A stretch of DNA of 64,000 nt, from NCBI GenBank assembly GCA_949130485.1, contig OX422183.1, forward strand, positions 1,106,001-1,170,000, read 5' to 3'. Position 1 is the first letter of the stretch. Every line of letters starts with the position of its first letter. The notes below the pieces were generated by a model. It was not told the DNA's origin. It did no database searches and worked only from the letters and a program-made list of their open reading frames with translations. Below, piece by piece: positions 31,215 through 60,645 of this stretch. This DNA is from Agelas oroides. Taxonomy: Eukaryota > Porifera > Demospongiae > Agelasida > Agelasidae. Both the position numbers and the translations under genes were made by a program.

Positions 31215-31545
31215 AATAAACTTTGTCAGGTTCATGGTTACACACACATATACAAAACCATCATCATGAATTACAATTTCCCAACTGATGAAGTCACAAA
31301 CTCTCCACTTGTCTTTAACACTGAAACAATTGTTACATACTGCCACAAACTGATCAGAACCAATTAACACAGATGCCACAAAGGGAGTTCAGTTGTGCAC
31401 CTTGTAGTTACCAGAGACTTGCACACAGTTATCTGTGACATACAAATTTCCTGCCCCATTCTGAGCAATTTCAGTTGGCCTGCTAAACTCACTGCCTCCA
31501 TCATCATAGCAACCATCATACCTACCAGCACCTAATGTGCTGTTT
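31215..31545 (-). pseudogene. Decayed 3' fragment of a TRIM-NHL gene
   Basis: The minus strand keeps NHL-repeat landmarks in order but in shifting frames: RPTEIAQNGAGNLYVTDN, then IGSDQFVAVC, then DDGFVYVCV. These match the last three NHL blades of the intact gene at 39217-41439 (RPNDIAQNRAGNLYVTN, VSSDQFVYVC, DEDGFVCVGE). It abuts the 3' flank of the larger broken copy at 31658. There is no RING, B-box or filamin part here. Confidence 0.75.
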
Positions 31546-34489
31546 ATACTGAAGAGGTGCCAGTGTGCAGTGTGTTGCAATTCGTGAAGTGCTTTAATTT
31601 TAATGTAAAGACGTTGCTATGTAATACCACTTGCATGACACAAAGTATAATGTACAGTTACGCAATGCAAATTTTCCCTGCAGGTGAGTATTCACCTACA
31701 TACACAAAACCATCGTCATCAATTGCAATACCTGCAGGGTTACTGAACTGACCAAAGGAGGTCACAAACTCTCCACTTGTCTTAAATACTGACACACATT
31801 TGCTCTGATACTCACACACATAAACAAAGTGATCAGGATCAACACAAATGCTACATGGAAGGTTTAAATGTTTGGAGGCAGCACCCTTCTTACTGAAAGT
31901 ATACAAAAACTGTCCCTTGCAGTCAAAGACCTGCACGCGGTTATTGTAACTATCAGTTACATACAAATTTCCTGCTCCATCCAGGGCTATATCACTCGGC
32001 TTATTGAACTGACCACGTCCATTACCATAGCAACCAAAACTATTCATGTACTCCAACTCTGTGTTCCATGTTTGGACTCTGTGGTTTCCATAATCACACA
32101 CATACAGTTTGTCATTAAAGATCTTGATTAAATCAATAGCACCGAATTCTCCTGGTTGTGTGCCTTTATGTCCGACTACTTTTATGAGCTCTCCTTCCTT
32201 GTTAAACTTGAAGAGTGAGGAGATACCATTGTCTAATACATAGATATTGTCGTCTTTATCCACAGCTACTCCATGCAGTAGGATATGAAAACTTGCTGTG
32301 TTTAATAGTCTGTACCTTCTTACCCTCTCTATCAAACACTGTCACCCTTCCCCATTCAGCTACAAGTAGCTGCTGCTTACTGTTGAGTGCTATCCCCATT
32401 GGCAACGTCACATCTTCCACCACCCTGACTGGCTCTCCTAGCTGGGTGGGGTGGATCTTTGCAAACACTTGAAATGGACTGCCAGCAATTTGGGTGCCAT
32501 TCACCTTAACAATCAGGGTATAACTTTCACGAACCTCTGGAGTGTAAGTGAGCTCATAAACTCCTCCCTCTTTTGGGGTGACTCTGGCATGAGTAACGGA
32601 ATCATTCACAACTGATTTCAGCTCTGCCTGGACCACTTGCTTTTCTTCACAGAGTTGGCCATTTTGGTACAGAGTGTGAACTGTGAACTGGACTGGTTTG
32701 CCAACTTCAGCAACTTTTGTCCCAGGCCCCTCTGCTGTGCACTTTCTGGGATCCACTCTCAAGACCATTACTTCAGTATTCTTTTGGCAGAGGTCAGAGA
32801 TACCTTCAGCACAGGCCACTCTAACACCAATGTTTGCTACCTCTGCTGGTATGAGATCAATGTGCTCATGCTTTTCACACTGCTCTTGGATTTGCTCTTG
32901 AATGTGTTGCTGCAACGACATGAATTCTTCATCAGTCGCATTTTCAACACTGCGCTCTATAAACCCAATGACACCTCGAATCTTGCCGGTGGCTAGTGCA
33001 AAATCCTTCTTCTGTGCTCTCAGGTTGTCCAGCTTTTGCTGTTTCAATTCAGACACATTGTCCAGCAGCTGCTTCTCTCGCTTGTGTAGGATTTCGTGAA
33101 GTTGTTTGAACGACTGCTCAATTGTGCCTGTGACAGCTTTAACTTGCTCAGAAACTCCTCTTTCAACCTTCTCAACTTCTCTGGTAGCAGCTGAGATGTC
33201 AGTTTGGATCTTTGCAAGTGGTGCCAAACTCTCTTTGAGTGTTTTCTTGTACTGAGGGGCAGATTTCTTCACAAATTCTGACTTGTGTCCTACATGGTTG
33301 TAAAGAACACAATCACGACAAACGAGGTGATTGCAATCAAAGCAGTAGATCTTCAGCGGCTCATCGTGGTCTTCGCACATTGGGGCCGGGGCTTCTATCA
33401 GTGAACTCTCCTTACGGCCCCGCTCTCTCTGAACTCCTGAAGGGTCACGACCTTATGACCAGCAAATACCTTCAAAACACCGTGTAACTTCACGCAATCG
33501 TTGCAGATAAACTCGGTGCAATGGCGGCAAAATGCCTCGGCCTTCGCCCTAGAACACATTTCGCAAACCATTTTTTCTTGCCCTTGTTCCATTTTTGTAT
33601 GCAGTTCCGTCATCCGGTTAACGAAAACCGCCGTGGGCAATCGATCCGGGTCATTTTCCGGCAAAATCGTTTCTTTTCGGCACTTGGGACACGCAAAGGG
33701 GTTGTTAGTCCCTGCATAGATAGTGGAGTGGGAGGGATTGGAAACGGATCACGTGCGCCCTATCTTGCAACACTTAACGTGTTGATACAGTCCGCGTTGT
33801 AGCGAATGTGTGGAATTTGGCACGTTGCGGTCCGGTTTTGCTCGCCATACCCGACTTGGAAGAAGAAGAAGTAGCCGTTTTTTGCTAAGAAGAAGAAAGC
33901 ACCGAGATAATAGGTATGTGTTTTGTGTTATATTGTGATCCACTGTTGATGTTTTATTCGTACGAGTGGGCTTTTGTTAGAATTAAGCGCTTTGGGATGA
34001 GTATTTACCCTGTAGAAAGCGTAGCGCAATAAAGCTGAATGCTTTTGTGGGTGCACAGAGAAGCTAAGGTACTGAATATATATCTTTCAGGGAGCCTGAG
34101 AGCTAGTTTTAGTGCTTATACATTGTTTGGTGTACATTATTTTGAGTTTTACTTGTGTTGAGTTGCATAGTAGTTGGCATCACCGGTTGCTTCGTGCGTC
34201 TCCGAACAATGGACTTTGTGGGTGTACCATGACCTTGAGAATATGTGAAATACTGAAAGCTTTACATTTCTGTACCAAACTACCATTGGTGTAATGCAGG
34301 GTATGCATTTTTTGGCTATTCATAGCTTGGTCTGTGTAGAATCAATCTTTGTTCCTACCTCCTTCAATGAGTTGCCGCTAGGATGCCCTTTTGCCATAGA
34401 TAGTGCTATGGGTTGCAAACTTGTGATCACATTGTAAACATGTTTAAATATAACTCATGGGTCTATACTGACTGTTCATAGGATGTGTG

Positions 34490-36015
34490 ATGGCATACAG
34501 AACTGGTCATAGAAAGTTCCGATTGTGTCATCGGAAGAATGAAGAGCGGAAGAAGTTCTCCCAAGTGACGTCTCTCCCAGTATCCATAGCACTGAACGAA
34601 GCGATTTCCGTCTTCAAAGTGTCTGTACCTCTAGACCTTCTCTCATACAAGGTGTCTCTACCATTGTCAGCAGTAACTGAATCGCTTGTGAGATCTCTGT
34701 CTACCCTGCATTCACGGACCAAGCTAACTAAAGCTCTGCCAGCTGGTATGCCAAAAAGGTTTCAGCTGTTGCTGTGCATGCAAGCATTGTTTATTTTTGT
34801 GTTTTTTTTGTAGGATGGCAGGATGTAGTTGGACTGGATGGAGTGAAGAGTCACTTGACTTACTGCAAACTGGCTCTTGACTCACCTTGTGGTAATCCCC
34901 GAGTTAGCTTTACCCTCCGTATTAACGACACGTTTACTTGGGTATTGCTTGTTGGTGGTTGTCAAATCCTGCCGAGTGACAGTGCTCTGCTCTCTGACCT
35001 ACCAAGTTCCTTAGTGACAGGTATGTATTCTCATGCACTGTGTGTAGAGCATTGGTAACTTTTTCCCATATTTTTACTACAGTGTCTGGCGTGGTGGAAG
35101 TGCTGGAGAGAGTTGATGGCTTGAAAGTGTGTCCAGGAAATGCTGATGAGAAATTCTCCAGTTTGCGGAGTTTTCGCAAGGGGATGTTTTCAGCAGGTAT
35201 ACCTTACTATCTAGCACTTTCTCCTCACTCAAGTCATCAATGTTATCATTCAACAGGGGAAACCAGAACTGCCACTGTGGATTCAACAATACGTCACAGC
35301 AGATGTGAGCTGCTATTGGAGAATAGCTGTTCATCAACTCGGTGCCCCAAGTGTGAATCTCATCGGAAATCACTTCATGCGATGCTGAGTCGCAAAAAGA
35401 AGGAATCTCCTTCTGATCAGGCCAACCCTAGCAGTCACTCAAACTTTCGCTACTTGGCTACCCCCGTGAAAGTGAACCGTCTTGCACAGACACACACATT
35501 GCTACGACAGAAAAAGCAGCACATAGAGCGCTTGAAACTGAAGATCGAAAAACTGCAAGGTGTGACTGTGGACAGCTCCACACACGATGATCTGCAAGCA
35601 ATTGTGAAGGAGAACACCATACTCATTCACGAGAAGTACCCTCCAGACACATTCCAGCGGCTGTTTTGGGACCAACAGGAGCAGGCTGCTCGAGTTAGTG
35701 ATGCAAGGTCAATGAGGTGGCATCCCCTCATGGTGAAGTGGTGCTTGTATCTTCGACATGTCTCAGGCAAAGCTTACGAGATCTTGCGGCAGTCTGGGTG
35801 TGTAAAACTACCTTCTCAACGCACACTGAGGGATTACACCCATTTTGTTTCCACCACAGTTGGCTTCTCTACAGAAGTCGATCAGCAGCTGATGGATATT
35901 GCCAACATAGAGCACTGCAAGGAGCATGAGAAGTATGTGCTACTGCTCATGGACGAAATGTATGTGAAAGAAGACCTGGTGTACGATAAGCATACAGGTG
36001 CCTTGACAGGGTCCA
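34490..36015 (+). pseudogene. P-element-type transposase, C-terminal half missing
   Basis: Exons join in frame as 34490-34745, 34814-35020, 35083-35196 and 35257 to about 36015, all introns GT-AG in phase 1. The long final exon has a zinc-like CPKCESHRKSLHAMLSRKK segment, a Lys-rich coiled coil, then HPLMVKWCLYLRHVSGKAYE, LPSQRTLRDYTHFV and LLLMDEMYVKEDLVYDKHTG. This block matches the start of the RNase H-like domain of P-element/THAP9 transposases; the Asp of LLLMDEM is the expected first catalytic residue. The reading then leaves the family at GALTG and stops shortly after, so the remaining catalytic and GTP-binding regions are gone. No THAP zinc finger is visible at the N terminus. An earlier 5' untranslated exon (to about 33913, AATAG|GTATGT) is possible. 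The ATG at 34490 is the first in frame after an acceptor at 34481. Confidence 0.8.
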
Positions 36016-36019
36016 CAGA

Positions 36020-36570
36020 GTCCTGAACTCAATAGACGTTCTAAGTTGGTGGTACCTCCCCCAGATCTTTCCTCTCTGCGAGACAAATCTTGCAGCAGAC
36101 TGACCTTGTTTAAAAACAATCCTTTTGAAGGGTGCAGATAACTTAGCTATCATATTTTCAGCAAAATTCTGCAAGATGTGTTGTTCTTCTGGTTTCTTGC
36201 ACCAGTCATTTAACAAAAGGGCTTGCTTTCTAGCTTCTGCTGCTTGGGGTGAAGGAAGCTGGAAGCCATCATCACTCAGTACAGTTAGTAGTGCTGTCAG
36301 GAACATCTGAGTTGCAGCTGATAAGGAAAAATGTTTAAATTTACTACGTAGCTATTGTATAGATCACTATCTATGGAAGAGTACATGCTATACACAAATC
36401 TAGTTGGCTACTGTGGGCTTTGTATCTTACCTGTGACTGAGGAAAAAATAGTCTGCGGTAGTACTGCGGTCGCCATCACATCCACAGTCTTTGAAGAAGA
36501 TACACTCTTTGTCTTCGCATAGATAATGGATCGGTTTATGCCAGTCTTCGAAATTTAAGTCGACCGGCGT
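36020..36570 (-). pseudogene. Second coding region of the P-type element, unknown function
   Basis: Two protein-like blocks read on the minus strand from the right TIR inward. The first (about 36570-36432) gives NFEDWHKPIHYLCEDKECIF, then CGCDGDRSTTADYFF, and ends at a good donor (CACAG|GTAAGA). The second (about 36318-36020, after CTTATCAG) gives QMFLTALLTVLSDDGFQLPS, QALLLNDWCKKPEEQHIL and KIWGRYHQLRTSIEF. The simple junction of the two is out of phase, so the splice or the frame is not settled, and no in-frame ATG was found. Its coding likeness ends where the transposase ends, at about 36015-36020. I do not recognise the family. It could be an accessory protein of the transposon or captured host sequence. 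Confidence 0.45.
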
Positions 36571-36730
36571 TGATGGGCATGGATTAGAAACAGGAAGTAT
36601 ACTCTTCTGCGCCGTGTGTTGACATCCGGTTCAACGCGTTAACATCCGGTACAACGCGGACTGTAGGTGTGAACGGGTGCTAATACACGCCGTTTCCAAT
36701 CCCTCCCACTCCACTATCTATGGTCCCTGC

Positions 36731-36883
36731 TCGGAGGACCAGTTGTCGGACGCACTCTTTGCAGTAGTAGTGGAGGCAAGGGAGGATCTTGGGGTCACAA
36801 AAGTGCTCCTGACAAACGGGGCAGGTGATCTCCTCCTCCTGCTCCTCCAGTCCCTTTTCCACGGGGTCTGGAGCTTCCGCCAT
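36731..36883 (-). other. First half of the split RING domain
   Basis: These are the N-terminal residues of the broken TRIM gene, with Cys/His pattern CPVC-X11-C-X-H-X2-C-X2-C, cut off from the last two zinc ligands (CPKC, now near 33680). The 5' flank (36884-37010) keeps AGCTTCTTTTGAAGGAAA and GTGCGCAT, matching the flank of the intact gene at 41445-41540, so the promoter region was duplicated too. Confidence 0.75.
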
Positions 36884-37099
36884 CGCAACTGTAGCTTCTT
36901 TTGAAGGAAAAAGAAAGCCAAATGTGTGGGTAAAAATAGCTGGCTCGTCAGAACAGAAAAATGCGATCAGCTACGACCAAGCTGCTACGGTGCGCATTTG
37001 GAAGGCCACAGTTTTGAGGATCTCAGATCTTCAACGTAATTGGTCAGGTATTACTCCAATTTTCGTATATTCACTTCCTGTACTGTACTGTATATATAT

Positions 37100-37600
37100 A
37101 GGGTGTCCAACCTGAAATATGAAAGTGTGCTTATTGATTCCAAAACAGTGGTTTTCATAAGAGCCAACCCAGGTAAGAAAGAAACCACAGACGGATCGGG
37201 TTCGCATGTCATTTTCCTTCGGGATCGGTGCACTTTTCCAGAAGTGGTAAGTTCCGAAAAATGGCACGTGACCAAAAATTTTAAGTTCGCCGTAACTGGT
37301 AAAATTATTTTGTTCCCAGACCACTGACCACTGCGAGCGAGACTACTGTAAACATCACAGTGAGTTATACATTAGGTCTGTGAGGGTAAGTTTTTGGGGG
37401 ATAACTAGGCTCATGGCTTGATATTGGTCACGTACCGTTTTTCGGGACTTACCACTTCCGGAAAAGTGCACTGTTTCCGAATAAAATTGACATGCAAACC
37501 CGATCCGTCTGTGGTTTCTTTCTTACCTGAGTTGGCTCTTATGAAAACCACTGTTTTGGCATCAATGCGCACACTTTAATACTTCAGGTTGGATACCCTA
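37100..37600. mobile_element. Foldback element with ~200-bp inverted arms
   Basis: The left arm TAGGGTGTCCAACCTGAAAT, then CCAAAACAGTGGTTTTCATA, GAAACCACAGACGGATCGGG and TTTTCC.GAAGTGGTAAG, is mirrored from about 37433 to GGATACCCTA at 37600. The arms are about 85-90% alike by eye, and TATATA lies outside both ends. The frames inside are shadows of the arms. It sits upstream of the broken TRIM gene. Confidence 0.82.
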
Positions 37601-37721
37601 ATATATATGTACTGTCATGCACGTCATCAGTAGAACTCGAACGCTGATTGGCTGATGTGGCGTTCTTTCCCTCATCAATACAGACGCCAGCATTCACCCT
37701 TCCTGGCAATAGTTATTCCCC

Positions 37722-37765
37722 AGACCCTTCCTCGCGTGGGCAGAAGGGTCTGGGGTCCAAGACTA
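37722..37765. repeat. Palindrome related to a long-TIR element
   Basis: CCAGACCCTTC, a 13-base spacer, then GAAGGGTCTGG. The same motif pair marks the ends of the element at 12983-13772, so this may be a short or solo relative. Confidence 0.55.
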
Positions 37766-38114
37766 GGTGTGCATGTGCAAAAAATGAAACACTCCAACTA
37801 GCTACCCGGTAGTCTCTTTAACGGACGGCAGGTATAATATAGTCTGAGACTTAATCCCCCAGTTTACTTGTCATGTCTTGATGTTGCATGCAAGAGCACC
37901 CGTCGCTTCATGGTTTAGGTTAGGGGTAGGCTTAGGTTATGATGGACAATGGCATAGTGCCTTGCAACATAAAGTTGCCTCCAAATTCCTCAGCAGTGTT
38001 TAGCCCTTTGTTTGTATAGAAGTCCAGCTGCTGAGAACACCATTTCTCAGGCTGTCATTTGTGATTCCAGCTGGGCAGCTGCAGATATAACTAATTGAGA
38101 TATGATTATACGTG

Positions 38115-38420
38115 AAGCATGGTAAAAGTATACTAGTCAGTACGTATAGCTACATAGCTATGACATTCCATGCCTAGTAACAGAAGGAGTCATTTCCTTG
38201 ATGCTATTATAGCAAGATCAGAATGTATAGCAAGGTAAAAGTATACTAGTATAGCTACATAGCTATGACATTCCATGCCTAGTAACAGAACGAGTCATTT
38301 CCTTGATGCTATCACAGAACTAAAATGAGAACTTACTTCTCCTGTTCTTGTATTTACGTTGCTTGCATGGCAATAATTGCACCCATAGTCTACTTGTGAG
38401 TGATGGCTTCATTTCCTTGA
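38115..38420. repeat. Imperfect tandem duplication, ~108-bp unit
   Basis: GGTAAAAGTATACTAGT...CTACATAGCTATGACATTCC...GTCATTTCCTTGATGCTAT occurs at about 38120-38226 and again at 38234-38312. A partial third copy (TTCATTTCCTTGATGCTATT) lies at about 38409. The rest of 37766-39060 shows no gene. Confidence 0.8.
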
Positions 38421-38959
38421 TGCTATTATAACAAGATCAGAATGTAAACATTGTGGCCACTAAAACGTTCATTGCTCACCCCCACCTGGGTGGATGTCAG
38501 AACCACTCTTATATGGGCAGTATACCCTTGGTTAAGACTAGGATGGATGCAAGAGTGGCTGTGTGGGATGTGCACGTGTGCATGTTCTCTGCTGCTACTA
38601 GCAACTACTAACTAGAATTGACATACCACTTATTTCAGCACCCCACTCTCTCCCAGCCACTGGACCAGTTTCAACCCTTACTGATTGCATGAGATTATAG
38701 ACATATAGGTGTACCTCCACAGTTTTGTTTGAATTTGAGAACACCTTTTCCATTGTTAGCTGTTTGTAAAGAAGGTGATATATACGCATGGGATCAAACA
38801 ACTGTCAACTACTGCATATCTGAGCTTAATTACGTCCGAGCACCATAAACTCCTGTGTATATTATCCTCAAGTACTGTTCAATATGATATATCATGCCTC
38901 ACTGGTTTTAGTACAAGACCCTTGCAACCAAAAATACTCACCATGTTACCATGTACAAA

Positions 38960-39216
38960 ACCACTACTGACCCAGACCCTTCCTGTATGGTCAGGAAACC
39001 AAACTAGTACAAAACCACTACTGACCAGCACTTGCGTGGGTCTTCAGTGCTGCTTATATATACTGAAGAGGTGCCAGCGTAAAGTGCATTGCAATTCATG
39101 AAGTGCTTTATACTCTATAATCAATGTAAAGGTGTTGCTAAGTAATACACACGAAGTGGCTACAGTTACACAATGCTATGTAATACCTCTTGCATGACAC
39201 AAAGTATAATGTACAG
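38960..39216. other. 3' flank shared by TRIM-NHL copies
   Basis: ACTGAAGAGGTGCCAG...ATTGCAATTC.TGAAGTGCTTTA...TTGCATGACACAAAGTATAATG lies just 3' of the intact TRIM gene. It recurs at 31549-31670 beside the broken copy, and its start recurs near 55840 beside another. It is duplicated 3' UTR or flank. A short local repeat, ACTAGTACAAAACCACTACT, precedes it. Confidence 0.7.
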
Positions 39217-41439
39217 TTACACAATGTAAATTTTGCCTGCAGGTGAATATTCACCTACACACACAAAACCATCTTCATCAATTACAATACCTGCAGGATT
39301 ACTGAACTGACCAAAGGAGGTCACAAACTCTCCACTTGTCTTAAACACTGACACACAATTGCTCCCCTTTTCACATACATAAACAAACTGGTCAGAACTG
39401 ACACAGATGCCACAAGGATTGTGTAGTTGCTCGGAAGCAGCACCCTTTTTGCTAAAAGTAGACAAAAACTGTCCCTTGCAGTCAAAGACCTGAACACGGT
39501 TACTTTTAGTATTGGTCACATACAGATTTCCTGCTCTGTTTTGGGCAATGTCATTCGGCCTGTTAAACTGATCATCTCCATCACCATGGCAACCAAAGCT
39601 ACTCAAATACTCTAAATTTGTGTTCAGTATTTGAACTCTGCCATTCCCACGATCACACACATACAGTGTGTTGTTGATGACCTTGATAAAAGTTAGATCA
39701 TTGAACTCTCCTGGTCGTGTGCCTTTTCGTCCAACTACTTTCATGAGCTTTCCTTCCTTGTTGAACTTGAGAAGTGAGGAGTTACCATAGTCAGAGACAT
39801 AGATATTGTCATCTTTGTCCACAGCTACTCCAATAGGACGTGAAAACATCTCATGTGCAATTGTTTGTACCTTCTTGCCATCTCTATCAAACATTGCCAC
39901 CTCTGCCCCACTTAACTCAGCTGCAACTAATTGCTGCTTACTACTGATTGAAATCCCCCATGGGTAGCTCACTCCTTCCACCACCCTCCTGACTGGCTCT
40001 CCTAGCTGGGTGGGGTGGATCTTTGCAAACACTTCAAATGGACTGCCAGCAATTTGTGCACCATTCACCTTAACAACCAGGGTGTACCTCCCACGAACCT
40101 CTGGTGTGTACGTGACCTCGTAAACTCCTCTCCCTTTTGAAGTGACTTTGGCATGACCAACAGACTCAATGACAACCGATTTCAGTTCAGCTTCAACCAC
40201 TTGCTTTTCTTCACAGAGCTGGCCATTTTGGTACACAGTGCGGACTGTGAACTGGGCTAACTTACCGACTTCAGTAACATTGGTCTCAAGTCCCTCCACT
40301 GTGCACTTTGTTGAATCCACTTTCAAGACTATCATTACCTCAGCACTATTTTGACAGAGGTCAGAGATACCTTCAGCACAGGCCACTCTAACACCAACAT
40401 TTGCTACCTCTGCTGGTATGAGATCAATGTGCAAATGCTTTGCACACTGCTCTTGGATTTGCTCTTCAATGCGCTGCTGCAATGACATGAATTCCTCATC
40501 AGTTGTATTTGCAACACTGCGCTCTACAAACTCCACAAGACCTTGAATTTCACTGGTAGCTAGTACAAAACCCTTCTTCTGTGCTCCCAGGTTGTCCAGC
40601 TTTTGCTGCTTCAATTCAGACGCCCTCTCAAGCAGTTGCTTCTCACGCTTGTGCAGGATTTCATAAAGTTGCTTGAATGACTGCTCGATTGTGCCTATAA
40701 CAGCTTTGTGTTGCTCAGAAACCTCCCTCTCAATCTTCTCAACTTCCTTGGTAGCAGCTGAAATGTTGGTTTGGATCTTCACAAGTGGCGCTAAATTCTC
40801 TTTGAGTGTTTTCTTGTACTGAGGGGCAGATTTCTTTACAAACTCAAACTTGTGGCCTGCATGATCACTAATGACACAATCACGACAAATGAGGCAATTG
40901 CAATCAAAGCAGTAGATCTTCAGCGGCTCATCGTGGTCTTTGCACATTGAGGGCAGGGCTTCTTTCAGCGGGATTGCCTTAGCCCCACCCTCTTTCAGCT
41001 CCTGAAGGGTCACGACCTTATGACCAGCAAACATCTTCAAAACACCGTGTAACTTCACGCAATCGTTGCAGATAAACTCGGTACATTGGCGGCAAAACGC
41101 TTCGGCCTTCGCTCTAGAACACATTTCGCAAAGAGCTTCCATTTTCCCCCGCGCTTTCTCCATTTTTGTACGCAGCTCTTTCATTCGGTTGACAAAAAAG
41201 GCCGTGGGCAGGCGATCGATGTCACCGTGAGGCAAAACGGTTCCCCTTCGACACTCAGGGCACGCAAAGGGGTAGTTGAGCCCTTCTCGGAGGGCCAGTT
41301 GTCGGACGCACTCCTTGCAGTAGTAGTGAAGGCAAGGGAGAATCTTTGGGTCGCGGAAGTGTTCCTGACAAACGGGACAGGTGATCTCCTCTTCCAGCTC
41401 CTCCAGTCCCTTTTCCACGGGGTCCGGAGCTTCCGCCAT
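39217..41439 (-). CDS. TRIM-NHL protein (RING, two B-boxes, coiled coil, filamin, NHL), intact
   Basis: A single exon of 740 codons. The RING finger spans residues 21-63 with a full C3HC4 set (C21, C24, C36, H38, C41, C44, C60, C63). B-box 1 follows at about 104-141 (CEMCSRAKAEAFCRQC) and B-box 2 at about 165-197 (CKDHDEPLKIYCFDC). A coiled coil covers about 200-345, a filamin-type Ig repeat about 368-475 (YTPEVRGRYTLVVKVNG, AGSPFEVF), and NHL beta-propeller blades about 480-740 with repeated RPIGVAVD, NIYVSD and GNLYVT motifs. This is the full TRIM2/TRIM3/TRIM71 architecture. Those proteins are cytoplasmic ubiquitin E3 ligases whose NHL propeller binds RNA or protein partners. The ATG follows a conserved 5' flank and precedes the family's MAEAPDPVEKG start. 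No lesion is visible. Substrates are unknown. Relatives lie at 31658, 43996, 55915 and 62561. Confidence 0.96.
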   Translation of the reverse strand: MAEAPDPVEKGLEELEEEITCPVCQEHFRDPKILPCLHYYCKECVRQLALREGLNYPFACPECRRGTVLPHGDIDRLPTAFFVNRMKELRTKMEKARGKMEALCEMCSRAKAEAFCRQCTEFICNDCVKLHGVLKMFAGHKVVTLQELKEGGAKAIPLKEALPSMCKDHDEPLKIYCFDCNCLICRDCVISDHAGHKFEFVKKSAPQYKKTLKENLAPLVKIQTNISAATKEVEKIEREVSEQHKAVIGTIEQSFKQLYEILHKREKQLLERASELKQQKLDNLGAQKKGFVLATSEIQGLVEFVERSVANTTDEEFMSLQQRIEEQIQEQCAKHLHIDLIPAEVANVGVRVACAEGISDLCQNSAEVMIVLKVDSTKCTVEGLETNVTEVGKLAQFTVRTVYQNGQLCEEKQVVEAELKSVVIESVGHAKVTSKGRGVYEVTYTPEVRGRYTLVVKVNGAQIAGSPFEVFAKIHPTQLGEPVRRVVEGVSYPWGISISSKQQLVAAELSGAEVAMFDRDGKKVQTIAHEMFSRPIGVAVDKDDNIYVSDYGNSSLLKFNKEGKLMKVVGRKGTRPGEFNDLTFIKVINNTLYVCDRGNGRVQILNTNLEYLSSFGCHGDGDDQFNRPNDIAQNRAGNLYVTNTKSNRVQVFDCKGQFLSTFSKKGAASEQLHNPCGICVSSDQFVYVCEKGSNCVSVFKTSGEFVTSFGQFSNPAGIVIDEDGFVCVGEYSPAGKIYIV

Positions 41440-41779
41440 TCCAAGTCAGCTTCTTTGAAGGAAAGTAGGTAAAGCGGTAAAAATGGCCGTCAGAGTTGAG
41501 TCAAACCATACGCCTACACTGCTGTAGTGCGCATGTGCAGACAAGTGTACGGCTGGAAATCGATAAAGGCACCGTTCTACGGCGTGATACTAGCGCTTTG
41601 CACTGAAGCCAGGCAAGCCGGCTAGCTGGGATGATTAGTGTAATCTACCAAACCTCATACTGTTTGGAAGGCATATTTTCTGCCAAAACCTGTATCACTT
41701 GTGTATACATGCAGAAAGGCATTTATACTAGGAATGTAACCGCATTTAATTTATTTACGCCTGTTACGTGTAGCTATTA

Positions 41780-44440: not shown

Positions 44441-44469
44441 GTACAATATTATTACCAGTGACAGCTACC

Positions 44470-47400
44470 AAACCAGCACTAGAGCTATTCATGTTCTACA
44501 ACTGGTCAAACATATGACAGCAGATTATAAGAGGATGTGTGTACTACAGTTGTTGCATTTCACCAAAAAGAGGAGTGTCTACCATGTCTGCTCAACATGC
44601 AATGTGTCATAGTTTCATAGTGCATGCTATGATCATACATAGCAGTGAGGTAGGTAGGTAGCTAGCCAGCTCATCTATATCTGCAGGCTTGCCAGAGGAA
44701 TAGATGCGTGTCATTCTGGAATAAATGCTGCCCTTAAATAGTAGCTGCACAAAAGGAACAGTGAAATATATAGTAGCCATAGCATCTGATTGAGAGGTGA
44801 AATAGTAATTGATGGACATAATTCTTACATATGGTACACCTGTGTACTATAGAGGAGTGATACTGTCACACCATGGACAGAGGACAAATCTGCATGGTTG
44901 ACTACTGAAGAGAGTCTATGGTTGGTACTCATACTGGCGGACAGCAACAGGGCGGACCATCCCAGAGGATTGTCAATAGATTTAGGGTATGAATTTATGT
45001 ATATGGATGATCATGGGGGATCTAGAGTTGAGCAGTATAAAAAATTATAGCTACCACTGCATAAAATACTGCATACATGATCTGAGTTCATGCTATCAGA
45101 ACGTCAGGTTTGTATACACACAGCTACAGTCCTAACTCTTACACAAACTAATCTGAATCACAATAAATTTCAAGTGGGTCCCGCAAATGAAAGAAATGTG
45201 CATACATGATAACTGCTTGCTAAGCAATGTCATTGTCAGAAGCTTCAATATTGCTGTGTGATCTCTCTACTCCAGACTTGTCAGATCTCGTGAGATTATC
45301 CTGGCCTTTGTCTTGCTCTGCACCTGAATCTTCCTCCTCTGTCGACACACTGCTGATGCTCAACCGCTTTTTTACTTGGACTTTGTTTTTCTGTGTGGAA
45401 TCCTCGCTAAGGAATTTTCTTTTGACCACCCATGACATCACGGAGAGCGCAACGGGTGGAAGAAGGGAGAAAATTACTCCCCTAGTACTACTAATGCTTG
45501 TTCCTCCTGGTAGCAGGTAAAAGTAAAATGTACCTACAGCAGTTGTTAAAGCGACAAGTATTAAGCATCGTGAAAAGTGGCCACAATCTCTTCCAAATTT
45601 ACAAGTTCTTGCGTAACACTGATTTCCTAATTGTAGTATGCACATGATGGTTGCTGCTATTGATGCAAAGGCTCCGACTGTAGCACACAGTAGTGAGATG
45701 GTTTGTAGTGGAGTGATAAGCAGGAAAATACAGGCAGGAAGACAGACCAATCCCAGCCAGATTTGTACAAACAGAAATGTGTTCCAGAGTAGGATGATCT
45801 GGAAAAGTTGGTGACATTTGCTGCTGCGGCACCAACTTGCTGTGAACAGGGCAGTTTTCTTGTGGGCTTTAATGGCTACCAGTAGTTCTGTGATAATTGC
45901 AATGAACATAACCAACATCTTGGCAGTGAAGGCTGTGAGCTCATCTTTGTAGATGGTTGAGTTGTGAGAAGGAATGCAGTGTGCTTCTGAGGTGCCATTG
46001 CATTTAGCCAAATGAATGGGAGGAATATCACAGTCCATGTACATCACAACCGTAGCTATGAAGTACAAGAGATTAAATACCAGCATTGTTATTTCAGCTA
46101 CAAGGTAGATGCATGATGCTTGTTGAGATTTGTCATTTAAGATTTCATATAATCTGTAGTACCAACTCACTCCATGTGTTATGGTAGTGTGCAGTACAAT
46201 CAAGTTCAGTAGAATAAAGATGGCAAGGAGTATTTTCCGAATGACAGACCTGATAGCTTCATCTTCGCAACAGGTTTCCGCATTATAGTAGCTGTACCAT
46301 CTGGCTATGTAACCTTGGTCTTCCTGGCTCCAAGTCGCTGGTACTCCTTGAGCCTTTGCATAGGCCTTGCTCTGCATATCAAGAACAACAGCAAAAAATT
46401 AATCAACCTTGCTGAATTGTATGGGTCAGGCATAGTAGGTGATGCAGCTAAGTTTTTGCCCTCCTAGCTCAGTTGCAGTATTTGGATGGGGGCCATGGAA
46501 CAAAGCTAATGATTTTGTGTAGTTCATGAATATTTGGGGGAATGGGTGTATGTGAACTCACCCATGTTAAAAGTAGCACTGTGGCCTGTGTCAGGTCATC
46601 CTCTGATGGTGTGCATGGAAACACATCAGAACTCATGTCAAATGCAAAAAAAACATGATGTCTACTACTACTACCTACAAATCTAGAATAGACTGTAATA
46701 GTGAACACTGGATCAAACACAAGCAACTGTTCAACTGCAATCATGTTCAGTGCAGGTGATCTGCTCCAGCGAAACTCCTTGCATCGTGTCTCAGTGGCTG
46801 TTTGGTTGTTGCTGTCAAGACTGTTGCATGCTGGTGGAGGCTTTGTTTTGTTAGGTATCCAGCAAACTCTTATTCTCACAACATTTACTCGCTCAGTTTC
46901 CAAAATGTGTGGAGTCAGTGGTGGAAAGAATGCTTGTCTCATCAGGTAGAGAGTTTCAGCATCATTGGTGATGATGCTCTCCAGCTTCTTGTAGATGGGG
47001 TATATTCTCTTGTACACTGGGCAGCCAAATATTCCAAGCTTGTAATCCAGCTCACATAAACCCCAAGCTGTGTTGACAAAAGCCATTATCCCAATGAACA
47101 TGAAGCAGTACATGGCTCTACAACTACCAACTATCTTCATGGTTGACAACAATCCTGTCATATGCTATACATTTAGGGTTCCATTTATAGTATCCACAAA
47201 CACTGAACAGTTAGTTTTATGATGCACTGTCAAAGCCCCAACTAAAGACTTACTTTCAGTCTGGATTCACTGAACAATTCCCCCTTTGTTCACTCTGCAT
47301 GCTGAATTTCCCCAGAAAACATTTCAACTGACAAAACTGTTACTATTGTATAGTCACTGGAATATTGTTGGTTTCGTAATGCACTGTCAAAGTCTGAACT

Positions 47401-48900: not shown

Positions 48901-48907
48901 GATTACC

Positions 48908-50989
48908 ATGAGCTGCAGTCAGTGTGCAGTTGCTGCTCTGTTAGTGACGTTAGTTGTTGGTGTGCAAGGACACCAGATCATCTATGTTGACACTGAGAAT
49001 GGGACACTGAATAGCAGCTGCTGGGAAGGAGGGCTAGACCAGCCTTGCGGTAGCTTGGAAGTAGCGGACACTGGTGCCCAGAGATACAACTCAACCATAG
49101 CTGTTCTGTTGAGGTATGGAACCAGCCATAATACTTCTACCACATTACCTGCCACAGACAATGTTACTTGTGAGTCAACCACTAGCAGATGGAATGAGTC
49201 AGCAAATCTTCAGAAGTGCCCCCCTTGGTTTGAACAATCCAATGGCACTTGTAAATGTGGAGAGAGTGTTGATGATATTGTCAAGTGTGATGAAACACTG
49301 CAGGAGTCTGCCATACTTGACTGTCACTGCATGACATACAGTGAAACGACTGGAGCGCTCATTGTTGGTGCGTGCTTCTACAACTGTGTGCATAACAAGG
49401 ATTTGAAAGATGTAGTCTACCATCAAATGCCGAAGACTGTAGAGCAAGTAAATGATGAAATGTGTGGTCGTCTTAACAGAGGTGGACAGCTCTGCGGTGA
49501 ATGCAAAACAAACCACACCACTCTTGTTTACTCCTACGATTTAGCATGTACATTATGCTCTGGTAGTGAGTATAACTGGGTAAGCTACGTTGCTATAGCT
49601 TTTGTACCTCTCACGGTTTTCTTGGTCCTTGTCCTCTGCTGTAGGATCAGTGCTACTTCACCCCGGCTCTACACATTTGTTATGTTCAGCCAGGCAATTG
49701 CAATTCCTGCAAATGTACGTGTTCTTTTAGCTGCTATCAATGGTGATTACCTTCCTCGTGCTTCAATGCTACTTCGAATAATATTAGCAATGTATGGTTT
49801 TTGGAATTTAGATTTCTTTCGCACATTAATCCCACACAAAATATGTCTGAAAGTGGATACACTTCAAGCCCTGGCATTGGACTACAGCATTGCATTCTAC
49901 CCTCTTGTATTAATCATTGTAACATATGTACTTATTGAGCTTCATACTCACAATATTAGATTTATAGTTTGGATCTGGAAACCATTTCATAGATGTTTTG
50001 CTCGCTTTCGACAGCAGTGGGATATAAGAACTTCGATCATCGATGCTTTTGCTACATTCCTTCTTCTTTCATATATAAAGCTGCTAAGTGTGTCCTATGA
50101 CCTTTTAATTCCAACATATGTATATAATATGAATGGAAGTGTGGTTGGTATCTACCTCTATTACGATGCGTCAATTGAATACTTTGGCACAAAGAAACAC
50201 CTCCCTTATGCCATTCTTGCTCTTTTTGTGGTACTCACTTTTATCCTGTTTCCTATACTGCTTCTGCTTCTGTATCCAATGCGATGTTTCCAGCGGTGTC
50301 TTGGTCACTGTGGAGTGAGGTGGCATGCTCTTCATATCTTCATTGATGCTTTCCAGGGTTGTTACAAAGATGGAACCAACGGGACTCGAGATTGCCGGTA
50401 CATTGCAGGAGTGTACTTATTTTTGCGACCCCTACTTTTCATTCTTTTTGCAATCACTCTCAATGCCATTTTCTATGGCTTGGCAGGTCTTGTGCTTATA
50501 GGTGTAGCTATGTTTACTGTCATAGTTCAGCCTTATAAAGCAGAGTTTGCTGCTTACAACATCATCGATCCTGTATTCTTCCTTACCTTAGCCATGTGTT
50601 ATGGCGCGGTAATGTGTATGAACATAGCAGCTGTGAAAGCCCGTAATCTTCTGAAGTTGTCATTAATAGTTTCGTTTTTGGTTGGAACCTTGCCTCTTTC
50701 CTACTTGGTCATAATTTTTGTGCGCTGGATCTGTTGTTGTAGGGGATTTGGACAAAGATTAGTTCACAGCGTTAAGAGTTGGATAAGAAGAGTCAGCAAC
50801 CAAGTGCATACCTCAGCGTTAGAGGAATCTCTACCAGATAGGCTTATCAACCCTTCTGTTTATAATACTGATGGAACCCATGCAGCCTTCTACAGAGCTG
50901 ACAACACAGAGAAGTTTAGTGACCAAGCATATTTAAGCATCACTACTGATGGAAGCGAAAAGAGTAGTTCAAAGAATAGGATAATTTAG
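48908..50989 (+). CDS. Family D multi-pass membrane protein, copy 1
   Basis: A single exon of 693 codons. Residues 1-22 are a signal peptide. Residues 23-225 form an ectodomain rich in cysteines (CPPWFEQSNGTCKCG, CDETLQ, DCHCMTY, CGECKTNHTT) with many N-glycosylation sites (for example N31, N61, N75, N85, N96, N111). About ten hydrophobic segments follow, near 226-245, 255-277, 286-305, 322-345, 375-395, 432-458, 502-522, 524-542, 553-575 and 582-606. A basic then polar cytoplasmic tail ends KSSSKNRII. I do not recognise a named family. The CPPWF...CKCG and LCGECK blocks before a bundle of helices suggest a large surface receptor or channel. The start is the first ATG and directly precedes the signal peptide. 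A near-identical copy follows at 51770 and a decayed one at 54624. Confidence 0.92.
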   Translation: MSCSQCAVAALLVTLVVGVQGHQIIYVDTENGTLNSSCWEGGLDQPCGSLEVADTGAQRYNSTIAVLLRYGTSHNTSTTLPATDNVTCESTTSRWNESANLQKCPPWFEQSNGTCKCGESVDDIVKCDETLQESAILDCHCMTYSETTGALIVGACFYNCVHNKDLKDVVYHQMPKTVEQVNDEMCGRLNRGGQLCGECKTNHTTLVYSYDLACTLCSGSEYNWVSYVAIAFVPLTVFLVLVLCCRISATSPRLYTFVMFSQAIAIPANVRVLLAAINGDYLPRASMLLRIILAMYGFWNLDFFRTLIPHKICLKVDTLQALALDYSIAFYPLVLIIVTYVLIELHTHNIRFIVWIWKPFHRCFARFRQQWDIRTSIIDAFATFLLLSYIKLLSVSYDLLIPTYVYNMNGSVVGIYLYYDASIEYFGTKKHLPYAILALFVVLTFILFPILLLLLYPMRCFQRCLGHCGVRWHALHIFIDAFQGCYKDGTNGTRDCRYIAGVYLFLRPLLFILFAITLNAIFYGLAGLVLIGVAMFTVIVQPYKAEFAAYNIIDPVFFLTLAMCYGAVMCMNIAAVKARNLLKLSLIVSFLVGTLPLSYLVIIFVRWICCCRGFGQRLVHSVKSWIRRVSNQVHTSALEESLPDRLINPSVYNTDGTHAAFYRADNTEKFSDQAYLSITTDGSEKSSSKNRII

Positions 50990-51769
50990 CAAACATGCCA
51001 TTTACTTATGTCTATTTTCTGGAATTGCTTGTATTTAGCAGCTACAATGTTTTAAAGACTTAATGCATGTGTGCAAAACGTTACACAAATTGTTTTTGTT
51101 TCAGTTTTAGCTGTATTACCATGATCAATGTTGTTTAGAAACTTACAGTTACCGTTATGTTGTTTTGAGGTTTTATCTTCGAATATTGCACTGCAAAGCT
51201 ACAGCATGTAATTTACTTTTATGTCAAGTTTAATCCATCTGATGTCTTATTCAAAGGTGGTTCTTGGTGACTCAGAATCTTACGTTTTAATGGATTGGTA
51301 TAGTACTTATAGGACTGCATACTCTTACTCCTACAGGCTTCTTCAATTGTATTACATTGCATATCCTCTTTCTGAGTGGGTATACCCTTGGCCAAATTCA
51401 ACCTTCCATTTGCATAATGTACTTTGATTTGGTGTGGTAGTTCATTTCCATTTGTTTGCATAAAAGAAGTTAAAATGGTGTTTTTGTCATTGTATACCAT
51501 ACTTATTTTAACCTTATTCTAAAGAAGACAGTGCCGCCGACAGGCATGATCCAATCTACTGCAAAGAATTCAATTCAAGGTGGATCTAACTTAGGGCATG
51601 TCAGCAATAATTTTGGCTGATCCACAATATCACAAATTTATGGAATTTATGGGTGGAGTTAACATGCCCACTCAAATTATTTGATTTGCTTGCATTCTAT
51701 GTAATGTAATTTTTAGATGAAAGGTGTTGTTTGTGGTTATCATCGGTATGACAGATTGTGAACCCAGTC
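50990..51769. other. 3' flank of family D copy 1, repeated after copy 2
   Basis: This spacer is almost identical to 53825-54623. It includes CAATTCAAGGTGGATCTAAC and the AGATGAAAGGTGTTGTTTGT block just before the next start codon, so it serves as both 3' flank of one copy and 5' flank of the next. An open frame common to both spacers (93 codons, minus strand) has no domain. Confidence 0.8.
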
Positions 51770-53824
51770 ATGAGCTGCAGTCAGTGTGCAGTTTCTGCTC
51801 TGTTAGTGACGTTAGTTGTTGGTGTGCAGATCATCTATGTTGACACTGAGAATGGGACACTGAATAGCAGCTGCTGGGAAGGAGGGCTAGACCAGCCTTG
51901 TGGTAGCTTGGAAGTAGCGGACACTGGTGCCCAGAGATACAACTCAACCATAGCTGTTCTGTTGAGGTATGGAACCAGCCATAATACTTCTACCACATTA
52001 CCTGCCACAGACAATGTTACTTGTGAGTCAACCACTAACAGATGGAATGAGTCAGCAAATCTTCAGAAGTGCCCCCCTTGGTTTGAACAATCCAATGGCA
52101 CTTGTAAATGTGGAGATCGTGTTGATGATATTGTCAAGTGTGATGAAACACTGCAGGAGTCTGCCATACTTGACTGTCACTGCATGACATACAGTGAAAC
52201 GACTGGAGCGCTCATTGTTGGTGCGTGCTTCTACAACTGTGTGCATAACAAGGATTTGAAAGATGTAGTCTACCATCAAATGCCGAAGACTGTAGAGCAA
52301 GTAAATGATGAAATGTGTGGTCGTCTTAACAGAGGTGGACAGCTCTGCGGTGAATGCAAAACAAACCACACCACTCTTGTTTACTCCTACGATTTAGCAT
52401 GTACATTATGCTCTGGTAGTGAGTATAACTGGGTAAGCTACGTTGCTATAGCTTTTGTACCTCTCACGGTTTTCTTGGTCCTTGTCCTCTGCTGTAGGAT
52501 CAGTGCTACTTCACCCCGGCTCTACACATTTGTTATGTTCAGCCAGGCAATTGCAATTCCTGCAAATGTACGTGTTCTTTTAGCTGCTATCAATGGTGAT
52601 TACCTTCCTCGTGCTTCAATGCTACTTCGAATAATATTAGCAATGTATGGTTTTTGGAATTTAGATTTCTTTCGCACATTAATCCCACACAAAATATGTC
52701 TGAAAGTGGATACACTTCAAGCCCTGGCATTGGACTACAGCATTGCATTCTACCCTCTTGTATTAATCATTGTAACATATGTACTTATTGAGCTTCATAC
52801 TCACAATATTAGATTTATAGTTTGGATCTGGAAACCATTTCATAGATGTTTTGCTCGCTTTCGACAGCAGTGGGATATAAGAACTTCGATCATCGATGCT
52901 TTTGCTACATTCCTTCTTCTTTCATATATGAAGCTGCTAAGTGTGTCCTATGACCTTTTAATTCCAACATATGTATATAATATGAATGGAAGTGTGGTTG
53001 GTATCTACCTCTATTACGATGCGTCAATTGAATACTTTGGCACAAAGAAACACCTCCCTTATGCCATTCTTGCTCTTTTTGTGGTACTCACTTTTATCCT
53101 GTTTCCTATACTGCTTCTGCTTCTGTATCCAATGCGATGTTTCCAGCGGTGTCTTGGTCACTGTGGAGTGAGGTGGCATGCTCTTCATATCTTCATTGAT
53201 GCTTTCCAGGGTTGTTACAAAGATGGAACCAACGGGACTCGAGATTGCCGGTACATTGCAGGAGTGTACTTATTTTTGCGACCCCTACTTTTCATTCTTT
53301 TTGCAATCACTCTCAATGCCATTTTCTATGGCTTGGCAGGTCTTGTGCTTATAGGTGTAGCTATGTTTACTGTCATAGTTCAGCCTTATAAAGCAGAGTT
53401 TGCTGCTTACAACATCATCGATCCTGTATTCTTCCTTACCTTAGCCATGTGTTATGGCGCGGTAATGTGTATGAACATAGCAGCTGTGAAAGCCCGTAAT
53501 CTTCTGAAGTTGTCATTAATAGTTTCGTTTTTGGTTGGAACCTTGCCTCTTTCCTACTTGGACATAATTTTTGTGCGCTGGATCTGTTGTTGTAGGGGAT
53601 TTGGACAAAGATTAGTTCACAGCGTTAAGAGTTGGATAAGAAGAGTCAGCAACCAAGCGCATACCTCAGCGTTAGAGGAATCTCTACCAGATAGGCTTAT
53701 CAACCCTTCTGTTTATAATACTGATGGAACCCATGCAGCCTTCTACAGAGCTGACAACACAGAGAAGTTTAGTGACCAAGCATATTTAAGCATCACTACT
53801 GATGGAAGCGAAAAGAGTAGTTAA
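51770..53824 (+). CDS. Family D multi-pass membrane protein, copy 2
   Basis: A single exon with the same architecture as copy 1: signal peptide, Cys-rich ectodomain and about ten TM segments. Relative to copy 1 it lacks three residues after VGVQ (a 9-bp loss). It differs at A9S, S93N, E119D, S120R, I390M, V601D and V633A, and stops five codons earlier (TCA in copy 1 is TAA here). V601D puts an acidic residue into the last TM segment, the only change likely to matter. The ATG at 51770 matches the copy 1 start; the frame continues upstream as GTG AAC CCA GTC without another ATG. Near identity including the spacers indicates very recent tandem duplication. Confidence 0.92.
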   Translation: MSCSQCAVSALLVTLVVGVQIIYVDTENGTLNSSCWEGGLDQPCGSLEVADTGAQRYNSTIAVLLRYGTSHNTSTTLPATDNVTCESTTNRWNESANLQKCPPWFEQSNGTCKCGDRVDDIVKCDETLQESAILDCHCMTYSETTGALIVGACFYNCVHNKDLKDVVYHQMPKTVEQVNDEMCGRLNRGGQLCGECKTNHTTLVYSYDLACTLCSGSEYNWVSYVAIAFVPLTVFLVLVLCCRISATSPRLYTFVMFSQAIAIPANVRVLLAAINGDYLPRASMLLRIILAMYGFWNLDFFRTLIPHKICLKVDTLQALALDYSIAFYPLVLIIVTYVLIELHTHNIRFIVWIWKPFHRCFARFRQQWDIRTSIIDAFATFLLLSYMKLLSVSYDLLIPTYVYNMNGSVVGIYLYYDASIEYFGTKKHLPYAILALFVVLTFILFPILLLLLYPMRCFQRCLGHCGVRWHALHIFIDAFQGCYKDGTNGTRDCRYIAGVYLFLRPLLFILFAITLNAIFYGLAGLVLIGVAMFTVIVQPYKAEFAAYNIIDPVFFLTLAMCYGAVMCMNIAAVKARNLLKLSLIVSFLVGTLPLSYLDIIFVRWICCCRGFGQRLVHSVKSWIRRVSNQAHTSALEESLPDRLINPSVYNTDGTHAAFYRADNTEKFSDQAYLSITTDGSEKSS

Positions 53825-54623
53825 AAGAATAGGATAATTTAGCAAACATGCCCATTACTTATGTCTATTTTCTGGAATTGCTTGTATTTAGCAGCTACAA
53901 TGTTTTAAAGACTTAATGCATGTGTGCAAAACGTTACACAAATTGTTTTTGTTTCAGTTTTAGCTGTATTACCATGATCAATGTTGTTTAGAAACTTACC
54001 GTTACCATTATGTTGTTTTGAGGTTTTATCTTCGAATATTGCACTGCAAAGCTACAGCATGTAATTTACATTTTATGTCAAGTTTAATCCATCTGATGTC
54101 TTATTCAAAGGTGGTTCTTGGTGACTCAGAATCTTAGGTTTTAATGGATTGGTATAGTACTTATAGGACTGCATACTCTTACTCCTACAGCCTTCTTCAA
54201 TTGTATTACATTGCATATCCTCTTTCTGAGTGGGTATACCCTTGGCCAAATTCAACCTTCCATTTGCATAATGTACTTTGATTTGGTGTGGTAGTTCATT
54301 TGCATTTGTTTGCATAAAAGAAGTTAAAATGGTGTTTTTGTCATTGTATACCATACTTATTTTAACCTTATTCTAAAGAAGGCAGTGCCGCCGACAGGCA
54401 TGATCCAATCTACTGCAAAGAATTCAATTCAAGGTGGATCTAACTTAGGGCATGTCAGCAATAATTTTGGCTGATCCACAATATCACAAATTTATGGAAT
54501 TTATGGGTGGAGTTAACATGCCCACTCAAATTATATGATTTGCTTGCATTCTATGTAATGTAATTTTTAGATGAAAGGTGTTGTTTGTGGTTATCATCGG
54601 TATGACAGATTGTAAACCCAGTC

Positions 54624-55845
54624 ATGAGCTGCAGTCAGTGTGCAGTTGCTGCTCTGTTAGTGACATTAGTTGTCGGTGTGCAAGGACACCAGATCATCTA
54701 TGTTGACACTGAGAATGGGACACTGAATAGCAGCTGCTGGGAAGGAGGGCTAGACCAGCCCTGTGGTAGCTTGGAAGTAGCGGACACTGGCGCCAAGAGA
54801 TACAACTCAACCATAGCTGTTCTGTTGAGGTGTGGAACCAGCAATAATACTTCTACCACAGCAGCAACCTTTCCACGGGCATTGTCTTCCCTCCCATTAC
54901 CTACCACTAATAATGGATGTGGGCCTACTGATAGTAGATGCAATGAACCAGCTAATATTGGTACTTACAGATGCAATGAGCTATCTAATCAGACGTCCAG
55001 CAATGTATCTTGCCCTCCTTGGTTTGAACAATCCAATGGCATGCACTTAATTGTAAAAGTGGGACAACTATCCATGGCATTGTCAAGTGTAATGAAACAC
55101 TGCAAGAGTCTGACATACTTGACTGCAACTGCATGACATACAATGAATCAATGGGAACAGTTGCTGGGGTGTGTGTGTAAATGCTAAAGATTCAAAAGAT
55201 GTTGTCTATCATCGTATGGCAAAGACTGTAGAGCAACTAAAGAATGCAATGTGTGGTCATTTCAACTGAGATGGACAGCTCTGTGGTACTTGCAAAACAG
55301 GTTATAGCCCTCCTGTTTACTCCTACAATTTACAGTGCACAATGTGTTCTGGTGGCCTGTACAACTGGATGAAGTATGTTGCTATAGCTTTTGTACCTCT
55401 CACGATGTTCTTGGTCCTTGTCCTCTGCTGTAGGTTCAGTGCTACTTCTCCCCTTTTGTCACAATTAAGCTCTAGCACTTCCCGCCAATGTACATGTTCT
55501 TTTACTAACAATTCTTCTCCTGGCACTTCGATAGCACTGCAATTACTAGCAGCAATTTATGGTGTTTGGAATCTAGATATCTTTCGTACATTCATTACAC
55601 ACTCCATATGTCTGAAAGTCGACACACTTCAAGCCCTGGCATTGGATTACAGCATTGCATTCTACCCCCTTGCTTTAACCATTGTAACATATGTACTTAT
55701 CGAGCTTCATGTTCACAACTTTCAAGTTATTGTTTGCATGGGTGTGGAAACCATTTCATAGATATTTTCGACAGCAGTGGGACATTAGGATGTCCATCAT
55801 CGATGCTTTTGCTCATTTCTCCTTCTCTCAAATGTTCATACTGAA
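54624..55845 (+). pseudogene. Family D copy 3, decayed and chimeric
   Basis: The 5' flank and the first ~70 codons (to AVLLRCG) are nearly identical to copies 1 and 2. After about 54835 the sequence departs: a longer Thr/Asn-rich segment (SSLPLPTTNNG, NELSNQTSSNVSCPPWF) replaces that of the others, and the rest is clearly older. Frameshifts and stops follow from about 55045. Recognisable pieces continue (DVVYHRMAKTVEQL, YNWMKYVAIAFVPLTMFLVL, LDIFRTFITHSICLKVDTLQ, LALDYSIAFYPLALTIVTYV) up to about 55845, so the last six TM segments and tail are absent. TRIM pseudogene flank begins immediately after. Confidence 0.88.
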
Positions 55846-55914
55846 GAGGTTTAATATAAATAATCAATGTGAAGATGTTACTGTGATTCTACAACAGAAC
55901 ATGCGGTCACATAT

Positions 55915-57540: not shown

Positions 57541-58353
57541 ACTAGAAGGTATTTACTGAGAAAAAATAATGTAGAAAGCTGTACAATGTTTTGACCAAAC
57601 CAGCACTAGAGCTATTCATGTTCTACAACTGGTCAAACATATGACAGCAGATTATAAGAGGATGTGTGTACTACAGTTGTTGCATTGCACCAAAAAGAGG
57701 AGTGTCTACCATGTCTGCTCAACATGCAGTGTGTCATAGTTTCATAGTGCATGCTATCATCATACATAGCAGTGAGGTAGGTAGGTAGCTATAGCCAGCT
57801 CATCTATATCTGCAGGCTTGCCAGAGGAATAGATGCGTGTCATTCTGGAATATATGCTGCCCTTAAATAGTAGCTGCGCAAAAGGAACAGTGAAATATAT
57901 AGTAGGCTAGCCATAGCATCTGATTGAGAGGAGAAACAGTAATTGAGGGACATAATTCTTACATATGGTGCACCTGTGTACTATAGAGGAGTGATACTGT
58001 CACACCATGGACAGAGGACAAATCTGGTTGACTACTGAAGAGTGTCTATGGTTGGTACTCATACTAGCGGACAACAACAGGGCGGACCATCCTAGAGGAT
58101 TGTCAATGGATTTAGGGTATGAATTTATGTATATGGATGATCATGGAGGATCTAGAGTTGAGCAGTATATAAAATTATACTTAGCTACCACTGCATAAAA
58201 TACTGCATACATGATATGAGTTCATGCTATCAGAACGTCAGGTTTGTATACACACAGCTACAGTCCTAACTCTTACACAAACTAATCTGAATCACAATAA
58301 ATTTCAAGTGGGTCCCGCAAATGAAAGAAATGTGCATACATGATAACTGCTTG

Positions 58354-60300: not shown

Positions 60301-60645
60301 GCTATAGCTACCAACCATCTTCCTGGTTGACAACAATCCTGTCATATGCTATAGCTACCAACCATCTTCATGGTTGACAACAATCCTGTCATATGCTATA
60401 GCTACCTACTATCTTCATGGTTGACAACAATCCTGTCATATGCTATAGCTACCTACTATCTTCATGGTTGACAACAATCCTGTCATATGCTATAGCTACC
60501 TACTATCTTCATGGTTGACAACAATCCTGTCATATGCTATAGCTACCAACCATCTTCATGGTTGACAACAATCCTGTCATATGCTATAGCTACCTACTAT
60601 CTTCATGGTTGACAACAATCCTGTCATATGCTATACATTTAGGGT
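60255..60645. repeat. 47-bp minisatellite, eight units, covering the family E start codon
   Basis: CTACC.ACTATCTTCATGGTTGACAACAATCCTGTCATATGCTATAG-type units repeat; the TTGACAACAATCC landmark recurs every 47 bp (60280 to about 60609). Copy 1 has a single unit at about 47118-47165, and that unit contains its two candidate start codons. Because 47 is not a multiple of three, each added unit shifts the frame. Confidence 0.95.

Follow-up and report, generated by a model that had tools for sequence, protein, structure and literature searches.

A probable P-superfamily-like DNA transposon in the RING-coding sequence of a TRIM-NHL gene of the sponge Agelas oroides

A stretch of 64,000 nucleotides from the sponge Agelas oroides (assembly GCA_949130485.1, contig OX422183.1, positions 1,106,001 to 1,170,000 of the forward strand; hereafter the window, in whose own coordinates all positions are given) carries an insertion of about 3 kb in a gene belonging to a local TRIM-NHL family, within the sequence that codes for the RING domain. 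The insertion itself is real. We consider it very likely that the inserted DNA is a cut-and-paste transposon resembling the P superfamily, and the placement of a P-type transposon in a TRIM RING domain, put forward in a first-pass annotation of the same DNA, is supported. The element has perfect terminal inverted repeats as well as sub-terminal repeats and is bordered by a short target duplication; part of a P-type transposase core is encoded in it, and the flanks, once joined, align without gaps to a paralogue of the interrupted gene.

The insertion and its ends

The two terminal repeats (Table 1) are complementary at 33 of 33 bases. With up to three mismatches allowed, their inner 32-mer is found in the window at these two sites only, and it turned up in none of 100 shuffles. 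The sequence GTCCCTG flanks the element on both the left and the right. Identical 7-bp flanks were found, in a table compared by eye, for one of eight perfect inverted-repeat pairs, namely that of the present element; these are the pairs of at least 18 bp with arms within 10 kb of each other and left arms beyond 13.1 kb. Random pairs of 7-mers were identical in 17 of 200,000 draws. When the flanks are joined, they align ungapped to an intact paralogue at the insertion point, and the RING frame is open across the join.

How long is the target duplication? The first-pass annotation gave terminal repeats of about 32 bp and an exact 8-bp duplication. The repeats are borne out, but 8 bp is only one of two readings. 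C33715 is the last base of the possible 8-bp duplication, GTCCCTGC, and also the first base of the symmetric CATAG...CTATG repeat; the 8-bp duplication and the symmetric 33-bp repeat therefore cannot be counted jointly, since this one base would serve twice. Either the duplication is 7 bp and the ends are CATAG...CTATG, or it is 8 bp and the element, with a 32-bp repeat, carries an additional G at its right end. The paralogue does not discriminate between 7 and 8 bp, since either reading gives an identical empty site. Given that zebrafish Pdre2 has the ends CATACC...GGTATG, with an 8-bp duplication (PMC10983969), we infer by analogy that the element would end in CATAG...CTATG; the duplication would then be of 7 bp, or of 8 bp if a C has been lost from the left junction.

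Inward of the terminal repeats lies the inner inverted repeat that had been annotated earlier; its two arms of 24 nt are 92% complementary. The right end of the element also contains a 20-bp direct repeat in two copies. A 17-bp motif, ACATNCGNTNCAACGCG, occurs once on the left, in inverted orientation, and twice on the right, all within the element. Since the motif was derived from these copies, the three exact matches are uninformative and it is the absence elsewhere that is informative: no further site was found in the window with up to two mismatches. Three copies occurred in 0 of 100 shuffles. The motif copies are candidate transposase-binding sites.

The transposase gene and its assignment

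In our splice model, four exons join in frame across GT...AG introns of 60–68 bases, and the 3-base periodicity of exon 4 exceeds that of all 500 shuffles. The P-transposase RNase H N-terminal model of Pfam (PF21787, cut-off 24.6 bits) matches above its cut-off in the open frame (25.9 bits), in the six-frame scan (25.0) and in the segment 35640–36026 (28.0), and the P-type match is absent from the five other frames of that scan. It stops at profile position 53–54 of 137, adjoining the stop codon. Just upstream, the P helix-turn-helix (HTH) model (PF12017, cut-off 23) gives 16.4–17.8 bits (E 0.012–0.0044), below its cut-off. An HTH match ahead of an RNase H core is the domain order expected of P transposases.

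The GTP-binding domain and the C-terminal part of RNase H have no match in the six frames, a region apparently deleted in this copy; for that reason membership in the P family is not judgeable by these two parts here. Since the transposase gene, as predicted, ends while still in the initial part of its catalytic domain, the copy appears to be non-autonomous and internally deleted. This truncation did not figure in the first-pass annotation, which spoke of a P/THAP9-type core. The P-superfamily assignment is supported by one short, near-cut-off match, but the THAP9 label is unsupported, as a THAP domain was not found.

Several observations weigh against the P assignment and against the transposon reading built on it. 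PF21787 falls just under its cut-off for the spliced model (24.2 bits) and for 35580–36002 (23.8); PF12017 never reaches 23 bits and is unlisted both for the spliced model (E 10) and in the six-frame scan (E 1). Neither the six-frame translation nor the spliced protein contains the C2CH pattern of a THAP domain, and there is no Pfam THAP match. A phmmer comparison with solved structures returned no P transposase, its best hits (E 0.17 and 0.21) being cereblon, and an AlphaFold model of 35259–36002 alone was useless, with a mean predicted local distance difference test score of 37.3. The target duplication may be 7 bp rather than the 8 bp of P elements, and the 64-kb window holds one copy of the element. 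Finally, no relatives were found in the collections searched, which were viral, bacterial and archaeal: most of exon 4 (35259–36002) gave 7 pattern stretches in the viral and 52 in the genome collection, no relative among them, 22-base pieces of the terminal repeat gave 0 matches in both, and a degenerate motif gave 0 matches in the viral collection. These missing relatives say little, because neither collection is intended for animal genomes.

Could the element then belong to another superfamily? Duplications of about 8 bp are also made by hAT and Merlin transposons. Many transposases share the RNase H fold and could give a borderline match to a P model, so that a hAT, a Merlin or an undescribed transposon might look P-like here; a match at the cut-off that goes no further than position 53 of 137, the missing THAP domain and the possible 7-bp duplication would suit such an origin. 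However, no other transposase model in Pfam reached its cut-off with the gene pieces, the spliced model or the six frames. The sub-threshold HTH match stands just upstream of the core, and the CATA...TATG ends and the sub-terminal repeats resemble those of zebrafish Pdre2. We regard another superfamily as quite improbable and retain a P-like transposon as the preferred reading.

Cys residues also cluster in the predicted protein (Cys 209, 217, 222 and 225, with His nearby). For this Cys-rich stretch the best transposase-related Pfam model was the IS91 zinc-binding domain; its scores of 12.8 and 14.3 bits stay below the cut-off of 26.3 and amount to no match.

As for the way in which such a P-like copy would move, it would make no working transposase and would need one from a fuller relative. 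The supplied transposase would bind the sub-terminal repeats, cut at the terminal repeats and join these to a target opened with a 7- or 8-bp stagger. The truncation may have come either before or after the present insertion.

A splice-like layout on the minus strand suggested a second gene within the element. It starts at an ATG at 36476, crosses a GT-AG intron, resumes at 36317 and extends to about 35996, with at least 117 open codons, and faces the truncated end of the transposase. The element might in that case descend by internal deletion from a transposon with two genes, a P-like transposase and a convergent minus-strand gene, both cut at one deletion point near 36.0 kb; a convergent second gene is described for KolobokP transposons (PMC9587614). 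On the other hand, the DNA from the transposase stop to the right terminal repeat (36027–36689) has a longest open frame of 108 codons, a length that 62 of 1000 of its shuffles attain, and the minus-strand periodicity is attained by 164 of 500 shuffles for 36000–36322 and 113 of 500 for 36027–36322. The protein has no Pfam match near a cut-off, and the eight stretches that it gave in the viral sequence collection include no relative. Since the shuffle tests do not place this frame above chance, the minus-strand gene is set aside as unproven, and a two-gene ancestor seems to us unlikely.

Table 1. Coordinates of the element, its parts and the interrupted gene (window positions).
Feature	Coordinates	Strand	Remarks
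Whole element	33715..36722	+	3,008 bp if ends are CATAG...CTATG; 33716-36722, 3,007 bp, if duplication is 8 bp
Left target duplication	33708..33715	+	GTCCCTGC, or GTCCCTG (33708-33714)
Left terminal inverted repeat	33715..33747	+	33 bp
Left sub-terminal inverted repeat	33786..33809	+	minus-strand ACATNCGNTNCAACGCG at 33793-33809; candidate transposase-binding site
Transposase exon 1	34490..34745	+	splice model; ATG; THAP not found
Transposase exon 2	34814..35020	+	splice model
Transposase exon 3	35083..35196	+	splice model
Transposase exon 4	35257..36026	+	Cys-rich segment, sub-threshold P HTH match, then first part of PF21787 (to 53/137); stop 36024-36026
Possible second exon of convergent frame	35996..36317	-	tentative; reaches into transposase end; lower limit arbitrary; open frame not above chance
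Possible first exon of convergent frame	36431..36476	-	tentative; open frame not above chance
Right sub-terminal motif, copy 1	36622..36638	+	20-bp spacing to copy 2; candidate transposase-binding site
Right sub-terminal inverted repeat	36642..36665	+	contains motif copy 2 (36642-36658)
Right terminal inverted repeat	36690..36722	-	33/33 complementary
Right target duplication	36723..36730	+	GTCCCTGC, or GTCCCTG (36723-36729)
Host TRIM-NHL gene, 5' part	36723..36883	-	ATG to insertion point in RING
Host TRIM-NHL gene, remainder	31658..33715	-	RING end, B-boxes, filamin, NHL; +2 indel within 33408-33425, +4 within 32269-32287 vs paralogue

The interrupted TRIM-NHL gene

The interrupted gene, or host, is one member of a TRIM-NHL family on the minus strand, with copies and fragments at 31241–41464, 55913–57497 and 62561–64000. 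The intact paralogue (39217–41445) has an open frame of 742 codons that matches RING, B-box, filamin and NHL models; the host pieces match RING, B-box and filamin models, and the host NHL part is assigned by alignment to this paralogue. In its interrupted state the host reads on from its ATG for 67 codons, to a stop within the element (36680–36682) just past the right terminal repeat, and the Cys pair (CPKC) encoded beyond the insertion point is lost. With the element removed, the host reads 156 codons and stops after the +2 indel.

The first-pass annotation had concluded that taking out the insert restores an open RING frame and that the host was therefore intact when the element landed. The open frame across the join stands; intactness at insertion is possible but does not follow, since the host has two further frame-breaking indels, of +2 and +4, which may have arisen before or after the insertion. 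The other four indels in the alignment with the paralogue are of 3 or 6 bases.

Was the host already a pseudogene, so that the insertion had no effect? The two frame-breaking indels are independent of the element, and the host-specific codon changes comprise 31 synonymous and 45 non-synonymous ones, against 30 and 32 in one paralogue (B) and 22 and 30 in another (C). The apparent non-synonymous excess is nevertheless small, and the host frameshifts may be assembly errors. Moreover, no stop occurs within the host frames homologous to the paralogue, and in the stretch common to the three copies the host-specific changes still favor third positions (30, 37 and 51 at codon positions 1, 2 and 3, compared with 26, 21 and 49 and with 32, 23 and 43 in the two paralogues). 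We hold an earlier loss of the gene to be a serious possibility, though short of probable. Since the homologous frames are free of stops and the third-position bias is kept, the loss of function looks recent, and the host seems to have kept coding constraint through most of its history.

A foldback element (37092–37607, 77% match to its own reverse complement) adjoins the host gene; its ends are GGGTGTCC...GGATACCC, each bordered by TA, which recalls a miniature inverted-repeat element. Elsewhere in the window, positions 1–12979 hold a long tandem array (a 332-bp unit in 35.7 copies over 1–11889, with related sequence on to 12979). A tandem duplication of about 3.1 kb at 48907–54860 (48907–51997 and 51769–54860, 98.5% identical) has long plus-strand open frames with a signal-peptide-like start, the latter judged by eye only. 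A 2.7-kb duplication in the same orientation (44467–47169 and 57594–60306) is 94.9% identical, and a minisatellite at 60255–60635 consists of 8.1 copies of a 47-bp unit with 97% matches.

Comparison with known P systems

The P element of Drosophila, at 2.9 kb and with terminal repeats of 31 bp, is close to the roughly 3 kb and 33 bp found here, and it likewise has sub-terminal inverted repeats, a short target duplication and commonly occurring internally deleted copies (PMC7776569). The transposase cores are related. Unlike the Drosophila element, the sponge copy is missing its GTP-binding and C-terminal catalytic parts and a recognizable THAP domain; its duplication is possibly 7 bp instead of 8, and its 17-bp candidate sub-terminal motif is present in one left-hand and two right-hand copies. 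Zebrafish Pdre2, a THAP9 element, agrees in its CATA...TATG ends (the first four bases are common), its sub-terminal inverted repeats and its internally deleted copies (PMC10983969, PMC7776569), but it has terminal repeats of 13 bp and an 8-bp duplication, and it encodes THAP9. The Anopheles P subfamilies share terminal repeats of similar length (27–31 bp) and have 8-bp duplications; in contrast to the present copy, their autonomous elements measure 4,178–7,545 bp, and THAP is present in every one of their putative transposases (PMC1562414). KolobokP would be alike only if the minus-strand frame here were real, in having a transposase and a second protein on opposite strands, and it differs in its long terminal direct repeats and in solo repeats mainly with 3–5-bp duplications (PMC9587614), neither of which is seen here.

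The remark in the first-pass annotation that P-type elements with visible ends and target sites are little documented outside insects and vertebrates is only partly right. A review names THAP9 genes of the urochordate Ciona and cites a paper on its P transposons (PMC7776569), and a survey mentions P-transposase-derived THAP genes of Hydra (PMC10027918). Among the titles and abstract starts of the literature matches listed, no description of a sponge P element was found.

What, then, of the THAP domain, which all known P proteins are said to contain (PMC1562414)? It may be split over unrecognized exons upstream of 34490. A bolder and rather unlikely proposal is that the element represents a THAP-less lineage related to P, with another N-terminal region that includes a Cys/His-rich, possibly zinc-binding, segment, with 17-bp sub-terminal sites, one on the left and two on the right, in place of the known P sites, and with 7-bp duplications; an intact form might have a second, convergent gene.

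As a single truncated copy, the element is chiefly a clear insertion within a local gene family, and most of its interest hangs on intact relatives. If these were to confirm a THAP-less P lineage, either the P core and THAP would have been joined after the superfamily arose, or the DNA-binding part would have been swapped. Such a lineage, if true, would bear on the relation of THAP transcription factors to transposons.

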